A stretch of DNA of 64,000 nt from the NCBI GenBank assembly GCA_018670825.1, contig JABHIW010000114.1:1-64000 (forward strand), in the 5' to 3' direction. The stretch comes from Candidatus Scalindua sp. (GTDB lineage Bacteria; Planctomycetota; Brocadiia; Brocadiales; Scalinduaceae). This document shows positions 39,782-43,322 of the stretch, in pieces; the first letter of the stretch is position 1, and the number at the start of each line of letters is the position of its first letter. The translations under genes were made by a program, and so were the position numbers. The notes beneath the pieces are model-generated. The model worked only from the letters and a program-made list of their open reading frames with translations. It ran no database searches and was not told the DNA's origin.

Positions 39782-40705
39782 TCAACTACCCTCAATAACT
39801 CTTTCATGTATTTCCTGGATTTGTCGGGCATTATGACCCTCAATTTTTTCAATAGTGTGGATCTGCTCCGGAGATGCTTCATAAGTGTGCTTATCAATAT
39901 ACCAGTTCACACTTTCTGTAAAAGGCGGTGTGGTGAGCGAGCCTTTGTAGAAATAGAGCCCCTCCTCGGATTTATCCTTCCGAGTGACCATTAAGAGATC
40001 ACTCAATCTTACACGGCCTGCCTGGATATTATGGACCGAGTGTATTTCCTCCGGAATGAGATCACGGAAGTCACTGATAAACTTATTCTCTCCTCCCATC
40101 TTAAAGAGAATACTTACCACCAGATACTCGATCCTGCCATTTTCCTGATCTTCAGCAGCATTTACAATATGCATCTCCATTGGATATGTCATACCGTCCA
40201 ACTGATGCTCTGATGGTGTATGAAAATGCATCTGCTTGAATTGGAATGTTTTACCGTGAGCCGAGATAGTGCTACCCTCAGCAAAATAGAGCTGTATTGT
40301 GTGGCCCAGATTTGCGACAGCATTAACTTCATCCTTGTATCTGACAGTAATGGTTCGACTATCTACATGCTCAACCGATTTAGTCAGAACATTAATAGGC
40401 GACTGGATCAATCCGTGGTCAAGTCCCGGCAAGGCAAACCCCTGTTTGTTTTCTTCTGAAATATCAAAAAATTGTGCTTCTAACTCTTCAGTTTGTCTAT
40501 TATCCTGTAGAATCTTCCTGATATTAATCTCTTCTAACTCTTCAGTTTGTCTATTATCCTGTAGAGTCTTGCTGATGTTAATCTCTTCTAACTCTTCAGT
40601 TTGTCTATTATCTTGTAGAGTCTTGCTGATGTTGATTTCTTTGCTTGAATTACAGGCGGTTGACAGGAGAATTGACAGTAAGATTACATAGATTAATTGC
40701 TTCAT
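39782..40705 (-). CDS. alpha-type carbonic anhydrase lipoprotein with 18-residue tandem repeats
   Basis: 307 residues. A lipoprotein signal with LLSTAC lipobox Cys18, three near-identical 18-residue repeats (23-76; EINISKTLQDNRQTEELE), and an alpha-CA domain. Zinc ligands are His160 and His162 in KQMHFHTPSEH and His179 in MEMHIVN; QSPINV and the C-terminal GSLTTPPFTESVNWYI are also standard. The usual N-terminal Trp-rich motif before QSPI is missing, the repeats standing in its place. It hydrates CO2 on the outer side of a membrane. Convergent with the cytochrome gene. Confidence 0.92.
   Translation of the reverse strand: MKQLIYVILLSILLSTACNSSKEINISKTLQDNRQTEELEEINISKTLQDNRQTEELEEINIRKILQDNRQTEELEAQFFDISEENKQGFALPGLDHGLIQSPINVLTKSVEHVDSRTITVRYKDEVNAVANLGHTIQLYFAEGSTISAHGKTFQFKQMHFHTPSEHQLDGMTYPMEMHIVNAAEDQENGRIEYLVVSILFKMGGENKFISDFRDLIPEEIHSVHNIQAGRVRLSDLLMVTRKDKSEEGLYFYKGSLTTPPFTESVNWYIDKHTYEASPEQIHTIEKIEGHNARQIQEIHERVIEGS
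40478..40639 (-). repeat. 3 x 54-bp in-frame tandem repeat in the carbonic anhydrase gene
   Basis: Three units of 54 bp differ at only a few positions, the third most diverged. The unit length is a multiple of three, so copy number can change without breaking the frame. Confidence 0.95.
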
Positions 40706-41109: not shown

Positions 41110-41144
41110 GCCGCAGTTGTGTATTCTAAATACACAACTGCGGC
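41110..41144. terminator. perfect 16-bp hairpin
   Basis: GCCGCAGTTGTGTATT-CTA-AATACACAACTGCGGC. It ends 26 bases from the stop of the alternative frame of the Cys-rich gene and 108 bases from the stop of its main frame. No T tract on the minus strand, a short one on the plus strand. Confidence 0.6.
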
Positions 41145-41251
41145 TTTAAAATATGTGGTATGATTTGAATTAATGCGCAATTTTCGCTTTAGGTTTTTCA
41201 GCAGCTTCTGTTCCATGTTCGGAGGCAGCTTCCGCTGCATCTTTAACTACC

Positions 41252-41707
41252 TCATTTTCCTTCGCCACCACATTTTCCTTCGCCACCGCATTTGCTTTCG
41301 CCACCGCATTTACTTGTGCCTTTTTTCTCCTCAACTGCCTCAGTAGCTTCTGCTTTAAATCCCTCTGCTTTTTTAGCAATTTCAGTTTTCACCACTTCTA
41401 CTTTTTCAATAATCTCAGTTTTAGTTTCTTCAACAATCTCAGTAACTTCTGCTTTCTTTTCCGTGACTACTTCTCTTGTTTCAGTAACTATTTCAGTCGT
41501 TTTCTCTTTTACTTCGACTACAGTTGTTGCTTTCTCACCCTTTTTTGCATCTACCGTAGCAGTATACTCCGCTTTTAATGCAGCTATCATTTTATCTCTT
41601 CTGGCTATTCTTGCAGCGTCATCTGCTGCAAATGCAGAGGAAATTGCAGTTCCCACAAAGGCAATTGCAAGTACTATAAATACGAAAGATATTTTTTTGA
41701 CAACCAT
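41252..41707 (-). CDS. exported Lys/Glu-rich protein with Cys-Gly repeats at the C-terminus
   Basis: 151 residues: signal peptide (to about residue 28, SAFA), a long charged Val/Glu/Lys/Thr-rich helix, then KCGGES-KCGGEG-KCGGEG-K and a stop. The EGKCGG words resemble the Cys motif of exported metal-binding peptides modified by MNIO (DUF692) enzymes; no such enzyme is in the window. A fourth repeat is cut by TGC to TGA. Past an AAAAAA run near 41330, the +1 frame reads on to 41170 as an Ala/Lys/Glu-rich tail with coding-like codons. Metal binding is inferred. Confidence 0.65.
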   Translation of the reverse strand: MVVKKISFVFIVLAIAFVGTAISSAFAADDAARIARRDKMIAALKAEYTATVDAKKGEKATTVVEVKEKTTEIVTETREVVTEKKAEVTEIVEETKTEIIEKVEVVKTEIAKKAEGFKAEATEAVEEKKGTSKCGGESKCGGEGKCGGEGK

Positions 41708-42035: not shown

Positions 42036-43322
42036 CTATTTCTTAGAGTCGTCTTTTTTGTGGTGGATGCCGAAAAGATGTTTTATCGTTTCTACATATT
42101 GGAATCCGCCGCCGTTCTTTGCTTTCTCTTTTCCTACTTTAGCGGGTTTGTGGAGGATTTTGTTGAGTGTTCGCTGCATTGAATAGACTATGTGTTCCCA
42201 CTCTTCATGTGCAAGCTCTCCCAGTTTAGGACGTAGTCTTTCAAGCTCCTGTTCGCCTATTTCGTGGAAGTGGTTTCTCAATTGAGAAATAGCGGGACCG
42301 ATTTTCAATTCCTCTGTCCATGCCATATATTTTGCCACTTCCTTATCGATGATTGTAACGCATTTGCTGATATCCTTCTTTCTCTCTTCTGCGTTGCCGT
42401 TAGCGACTTTGTTCAAATCATTTATGTCATATAGGTATACGTTATCGATCTTTGCTATTTCAGGGTCAATATCCCTCGGGAAAGCAATATCTATGAGCAG
42501 CATGGGGTTACCTCTGCGTGCCTTTATAGCATTTTTTACGTGTTCTGTGTGGATTACATGACGAGGGGATGCGGTAGAACTGATGATTATGTCTGCCTGT
42601 GGGAGATATTCATCAAGTTTTTCGTAGTTTATGGCCTTTCCGTCATATTCTTCAGCAAGGGACTTTGCTTTGTCGTAGTTTCTGTTTGCTACTATTGCCG
42701 TCTTTGCGCCACGCTCCACCAGATGTTTCAATACAAGTTCGCACATCTCACCTGCACCGATTATGAACAGCGTCTTCTCTGAGAAGTCCTTGAATATCTT
42801 TATGGCAAGGTCAACGGCTACCGTACTCACAGATATATTTCCTTTGCCGATGGCTGTCTTAGTGTGTACGTCCTTGGCAACGTTCAGTGAACGCTGGAAG
42901 AGCTGGTTCAGGATACTGCCGGTTGTCTCTGCAGTAGTCGCTGTCATATATGCTTCCTTTACCTGAGAGATGATCTGTGTCTCTCCCAGGACGCCTGAGT
43001 TGAGGCTGGAGGCAACAAAGAAAAGGTGCCTGACGGCATTGATACCCTGGTGGTGGTACATGTGATTAGCGAATTCCTCTTTAGGCAGGCCGTGGAAGGC
43101 TGAAAAGAAATCCAGCAGTGTCTCCTTGTCTAAACTGTCATCGGGTGATGTTGCATAAATCTCAACACGATTACACGTGGAGAGTATTACTATTTCTGAA
43201 GACGGAAAAGACTGTGCAAATGAAGAGAGTGCGATTGGCACTGATGAAGGACTGAAGGCAATCTTCTCCCTTACTTCTACTGGTGCAGAGTCATGATTTA
43301 GACCGAGAGTATGTAAATTCAT
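42036..43322 (-). CDS. hemA: glutamyl-tRNA reductase
   Basis: 428 residues. Catalytic Cys50 in ILSTCNRVEIYA, substrate-site GLNHDSAPVEVREKIAF, NADPH-binding LFIIGAGEMCELVLKHL, and the C-terminal dimerisation helices. It reduces glutamyl-tRNA to glutamate semialdehyde, the first step of C5 haem synthesis. The catalytic and NADPH motifs are intact and the length is normal. It follows a CcsA/HemX gene by 12 bases, a common pairing that links haem supply to cytochrome c assembly. Confidence 0.95.
   Translation of the reverse strand: MNLHTLGLNHDSAPVEVREKIAFSPSSVPIALSSFAQSFPSSEIVILSTCNRVEIYATSPDDSLDKETLLDFFSAFHGLPKEEFANHMYHHQGINAVRHLFFVASSLNSGVLGETQIISQVKEAYMTATTAETTGSILNQLFQRSLNVAKDVHTKTAIGKGNISVSTVAVDLAIKIFKDFSEKTLFIIGAGEMCELVLKHLVERGAKTAIVANRNYDKAKSLAEEYDGKAINYEKLDEYLPQADIIISSTASPRHVIHTEHVKNAIKARRGNPMLLIDIAFPRDIDPEIAKIDNVYLYDINDLNKVANGNAEERKKDISKCVTIIDKEVAKYMAWTEELKIGPAISQLRNHFHEIGEQELERLRPKLGELAHEEWEHIVYSMQRTLNKILHKPAKVGKEKAKNGGGFQYVETIKHLFGIHHKKDDSKK

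Follow-up and report, generated by a model that had tools for sequence, protein, structure and literature searches.

A cysteine-rich C-terminus probably acquired by capture in a small exported protein of Candidatus Scalindua, with the ancestral tail persisting out of frame

With regard to its 3' end, a small gene situated downstream of hemA in the anammox bacterium Candidatus Scalindua sp. poses the question of which of two open reading frames accounts for the C-terminus of its product. The gene is located on a stretch of 64,000 nucleotides (GenBank assembly GCA_018670825.1, contig JABHIW010000114.1), here termed the window, and the source genome comprises 4.45 Mb in 178 contigs with a completeness of 93.5%. 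The frame-0 product starts with MVVKKISFVFIVLAIAFVGTAISSAFA-ADD, which by eye resembles an export signal (Sec-type signal peptide, judged without a predictor) and is probably cut near the junction of AFA and ADD. Its middle part is probably helical, and its C-terminal end reads KCGGES-KCGGEG-KCGGEG-K-TGA. As stated in the initial annotation, the stop falls within a fourth, degenerate copy of the 18-bp unit that encodes the KCGGE repeats, because GGT AGT TAA follows in the same frame. In the +1 frame no stop interrupts the stretch between 41379 and 41170, whose translation ends in ...VVKDAAEAASEHGTEAAEKPKAKIAH.

All features of the locus are compiled in Table 1. We take the anchor gene to be hemA from sequence recognition, and the same gene order around it is present at three further loci (L003, L005, L006). 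For the frame-0 protein, no match above cut-off was obtained in Pfam or NCBIfam; the curated families Apolipoprotein and Slr1339 yielded weak sub-threshold matches only, which were taken as a reflection of composition. A neighboring carbonic anhydrase-like gene (39782-40705) carries three near-perfect copies of the repeat EINISKTLQDNRQTEELE at 40500-40705, directly after its signal or lipoprotein start.

Table 1. Coordinates of the features of the small gene and its surroundings in the window, and loci of the related gene cassette.
Feature	Position	Strand	Description
hemA (presumed glutamyl-tRNA reductase)	42036..43322	-	upstream synteny anchor
Frame-0 ORF	41252..41707	-	151 aa; signal peptide-like N-terminus, K/E/T/V-rich middle, KCGGE tail, TGA
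A6 tract	41321..41326	-	GAG GAG AAA AAA GGC; frame 0 reads Lys-Lys; no role is indicated
Three 18-bp units	41258..41311	-	frame 0: KCGGES, KCGGEG, KCGGEG; +1 frame: NAVAKA/NAVAKE/NVVAKE
Fourth, degenerate unit	41243..41257	-	AAA TGA GGT AGT TAA; compare donor ending AAA TGT GGT AGT TAA (KCGS-stop)
Ancestral C-terminus, now in +1 frame	41170..41247	-	VKDAAEAASEHGTEAAEKPKAKIAH-stop
Strong hairpin	41110..41144	-	-26.8 kcal/mol, z = -8.6; 3' of the ancestral stop
Cassette loci	L009:1678-6021 (G000 C133); L045, L046, L047, L048, L049; L055, L056		exported Cys-rich protein, Gluconate_2-dh3 protein and GMC oxidoreductase

Codon usage differs along the two frames. Frame 0 shows good usage as far as the repeats and also across them; there its mean ln RSCU of +0.08 is normal, as opposed to a poor value of -0.22 for +1, the latter frame using GTG and GCG for valine and alanine in most units although each makes up less than 0.2 of its synonyms in the window. 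Beyond the TGA, codon usage is good in +1 alone. Over the repeats, the +1 opening is a shadow of the KCGGE-encoding DNA, since KCGGE codons contain no stop when shifted; genuine Cys-rich genes likewise have an open +1 frame of Val, Ala, Lys and Asn (e.g., RENVVAK, EKVNAAV). The initial annotation had let the +1 frame be entered at the A6 tract. While the open frame to 41170 is real, entry is possible anywhere from about 41379 to 41254 and the frame is stop-free before as well as after the tract, which is therefore not singled out.

Syntenic orthologues at the hemA locus were identified in genomes G010 and G007 (Candidatus Scalindua sp. OFTM180), and their N-termini correspond to that of the window gene. 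In the OFTM180 relative, hemA is accompanied by a cytochrome c assembly-like gene in the same order as in the window. Neither orthologue contains KCGGE repeats. The G010 protein consists of 126 amino acids and ends in VKDAAEAASEHGTEAAEKVKAEITC, the G007 protein ends in VEAESEHETENVESAH, and both possess one continuous frame. Alignment matches the G010 tail VKDAAEAASEHGTEAAEKVKAEI with VKDAAEAASEHGTEAAEKPKAKI in the +1 frame of the window. Because both orthologues end in this sequence, the +1 tail is, as judged by sequence comparison, the ancestral C-terminus, and its coding appearance is real. Two coding-like C-termini, as originally proposed, are thus present: the orthologues use the +1 tail, and codon usage supports frame 0 over the repeats. 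A dual reading of both frames, on the other hand, does not agree with relatives that carry the +1-type tail only.

Between the window and G010, 15 codons counted from DAAEAASEHGTEAAE exhibit five synonymous and no nonsynonymous changes, while the last eight codons of the tail carry four nonsynonymous changes and not one codon change that is purely synonymous. Small as these numbers are, they fit a long period of protein constraint and possibly recent decay. A family profile search recovered the window gene as two pieces, i.e., the frame-0 body and a separate +1 tail; as the window's +1 translation was itself among the sequences of the profile, this split illustrates the finding without being independent proof, and the evidence is the pairwise match to G010. 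Searching the genus with the profile returned the same three genomes and no further orthologues. As noted in the initial annotation, a strong hairpin is positioned close to the end of the +1 frame. It probably marks the 3' end of the transcript, and in the alignment the G010 orthologue is likewise trailed by a similar inverted sequence.

For hemA, identity amounts to 94.4% between window and G007, 84.1% between window and G010 and 83.0% between G007 and G010. Given these values and the lack of repeats in both relatives, the most parsimonious history is that the lineage of the window gained KCGGE. Although hemA of the window is nearest to that of G007, the small gene looks nearer to G010 than to G007; the locus may have been exchanged or may be evolving unevenly.

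The KCGGE repeats point to a source within the same genome. A codon pattern for KCGGExKCG occurred in six of 62 Brocadiales genomes, and all matches except the window gene belonged to a single family of exported Cys-rich proteins; the reversed pattern, searched as a control over the same 62 genomes, gave none. The source genome contains two members of this family on contig C133. The end of one of these (L009:5644-6021) aligns with the window without gaps at 54 of 60 bases, through the stop codon of the presumed donor, and it scores best among seven Cys-rich genes from six genomes (42 vs. 18-36). Five of the six differences are at third positions of frame 0; in their effect, four are synonymous, one exchanges Ser and Gly and one exchanges TGT and TGA. 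The TGA of the window gene stands exactly where the donor has its last cysteine codon and is followed by GGT AGT TAA, the Gly-Ser-stop of the donor. The hexamer AGTTAA also occurs at the matching place in the G010 orthologue (GAAGTTAAG) and is therefore a candidate crossover point; being ancestral too, it counts for the joint and not for homology with the donor. The window gene contains one unit more than can be aligned with the donor. Over 24 nucleotides and with the peptide kept fixed, DNA identity mildly exceeds that of synonymous shuffles (P = 0.011 with the codon usage of the window, P = 0.043 with that of the Cys-rich genes), so the case for copying depends mainly on how exclusive the motif is. 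A proteobacterial match (L004) was set aside, as the Cys repeats alone aligned, and the short EGKCG pattern by itself proved too unspecific for mapping the family. The literature searched yielded no paper on KCGGEGKCG or on Scalindua in combination with GMC oxidoreductase.

Based on the tails of the orthologues, their lack of KCGGE, the uniqueness of the motif and the similarity to the donor, it is likely that the gene, known in this form from one genome, is a chimera, i.e., that a tail captured from a Cys-rich gene was joined in frame and the old C-terminus was left behind out of frame. The starting state would have been a small, exported, K/E-rich and probably helical protein ending in ...VKDAAEAASEHGTEAAEK... 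We infer that the KCGGE tail was copied, most likely from the exported Cys-rich gene on C133, and joined ahead of the old C-terminus. The 3' joint probably formed by microhomology at the common AGTTAA, the last six bases of GGT-AGT-TAA in the donor. A change of TGT to TGA would then have trimmed the new tail by three residues (Cys-Gly-Ser) before the donor's end. The old C-terminus would persist downstream as an out-of-frame remnant that is still open because the event was presumably recent. The product made today would be exported and probably helical and would carry three cysteines in KCGGE context at its C-terminal end; by analogy, this new tail may bind metal or offer thiols outside the cytoplasm.

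Since the stop codon of the donor lies at the joint, the change of frame is explained by tail capture without any slip at the A6 tract. An assembly or sequencing indel is nevertheless the strongest competitor, albeit an unlikely one: with one base fewer near A6 the gene would encode a single protein of 178 amino acids with NVVAKE repeats followed by the ancestral tail. In accordance with this, the +1 frame runs without a stop from a point ahead of A6 into the C-terminus conserved in the orthologues, and skipping one base yields a read-through product that can be written out. However, the frame-0 match to KCGGEGKCGGEGKxGS-stop, a pattern confined elsewhere to one family in the 62 genomes, would become a coincidence, and the +1 frame would have to be translated over the repeats with the poor codons described above. 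An unsystematic look at the long ORFs of the window noticed no other frameshifted gene. Moreover, an indel is not needed, as frame 0 continues without interruption into the KCGGE stretch and the frame changes where the donor has its stop.

Slightly less probable still is a tandem expansion of an 18-bp unit within the ancestral tail that created a Val/Ala/Lys repeat and KCGGE merely as a chance by-product. Units 1 to 3 indeed differ from their neighbors by one to two or three bases and unit 4 merges into ancestral sequence, but the 15 bases of unit 4 differ from unit 3 at four positions and from the donor ending at only one. Frame-0 codon usage and motif exclusivity speak against chance, and the G010 orthologue is devoid of such a unit.

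The initial annotation considered programmed frameshifting, which in its +1 form would supply a product with the Cys tail beside another that has the ancestral tail. Both tails are open and 15 codons of the ancestral tail lack nonsynonymous changes relative to G010, yet such conservation can predate the capture, and the last eight codons show the opposite pattern. No prfB-type +1 site was recognized by eye, G-AAA-AAA-G departs from the canonical -1 heptamer and slippage on it would reach the wrong frame, no structure is apparent over the repeats (fold z = -0.47) and neither relative conserves both frames. In sum, frameshifting appears improbable and, of this proposal, the open +1 frame is what stands. 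Phase variation through the A6 tract, also suggested originally and prompted by a homopolymer near the frame change, is very improbable, six A's being a short run of a kind ordinary in an AT-rich, lysine-rich gene. Least credible of all is decoding of TGA as selenocysteine to give a tail ending K-U-G-S: TGA does replace the Cys codon exactly, ahead of the donor's Gly-Ser-stop, and a small hairpin follows (z = -1.5), but the 93.5% complete genome contains neither a tRNA-Sec above the gathering score nor SelB above cut-off, and the hairpin lies in ancestral coding sequence.

Repeats of the EGKCG type are a hallmark of MNIO substrates. The resemblance of the KCGGE repeats to MNIO-type Cys motifs, noted in the initial annotation, is genuine, while an MNIO-modified peptide is not indicated here: PF05114 (DUF692, MNIO) was found in none of 13 Scalindua genomes (controls were detected in 2). 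The tail, without MNIO, would stay free of MNIO-type modification. Among all 62 Brocadiales genomes, PF05114 was found in one, which does not belong to Scalindua; this single match is L073 (G052 C20:1345-1782).

The donor family forms part of a conserved cassette, in which the exported Cys-rich protein is encoded together with a Gluconate_2-dh3 protein (PF13618) that has a twin-arginine-like start and a GMC oxidoreductase. Six Scalindua genomes possess the cassette, and two other Brocadiales genomes, G026 and G042, contain it in a version with classical EGKCG 5-mers. A search for PF05114 gave no match in any of these genomes, including the single-contig genome G026. In the source genome, the pair of Cys-rich and Gluconate_2-dh3 genes is tandem-duplicated ahead of the GMC gene (L009:3357-6021), and the second Cys-rich copy there features long KCGS/KCGG and His-rich repeats. 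Beside the window gene itself, neither a GMC nor a Gluconate_2-dh3 gene was recognized. A tentative and rather doubtful idea would make the KCGGE/EGKCG tail a C-terminal tag that is portable in anammox bacteria and that the Gluconate_2-dh3 and GMC oxidoreductase cassette, lacking MNIO, processes or loads with metal; the window gene would then be a second carrier, having acquired the tag.

The locus offers a readable case of a probable C-terminus swap with donor, recipient and plausible joint in one genome and the old tail intact out of frame; a donor-like tail is identifiable in the same genome and the ancestral tail of the recipient in the orthologues. It also provides a warning, in that dual coding can be mimicked by the open Val/Ala/Lys shadow frame of Cys-Gly repeats. 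Furthermore, the donor family points to an anammox cassette, so far unstudied, that encodes EGKCG-type proteins in genomes without detected MNIO, and this cassette is a more novel lead than the window gene.

In EGKCG proteins, MNIO enzymes modify Lys-Cys motifs and copper is bound (PMC13097082, PMC12452194). The window protein shares with Buf_EGKCG and oxazolin (HvfA, FonA-type) precursors (PMC12452194, PMC13097082) the repeated Lys-Cys-Gly in Gly/Glu context and, judging from its signal-like start, may also share their export. It differs in that just three KCGGE units end an unrelated, probably helical protein, in a spacing of six residues (K-C-G-G-E-G 6-mers) instead of EGKCG 5-mers, as well as in lacking any NCBIfam or Pfam match above cut-off and in stemming from a genus with MNIO in 0 of 13 genomes. 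Much closer is the Scalindua Cys-rich protein (L009:5644-6021 and relatives), which has a similar tail, KCGGEGKCGGEGK-C-GS-stop, and similar DNA (54/60), whereas the remainder of the protein is unrelated and the window gene resides elsewhere in the genome. With respect to process, the known counterpart is gene chimerism in which a C-terminus is replaced by illegitimate (microhomology) recombination. Although the window case is known from one assembly and its direction is one that we infer, it likewise displays a new tail in frame, an old tail out of frame and a short common sequence at the joint.
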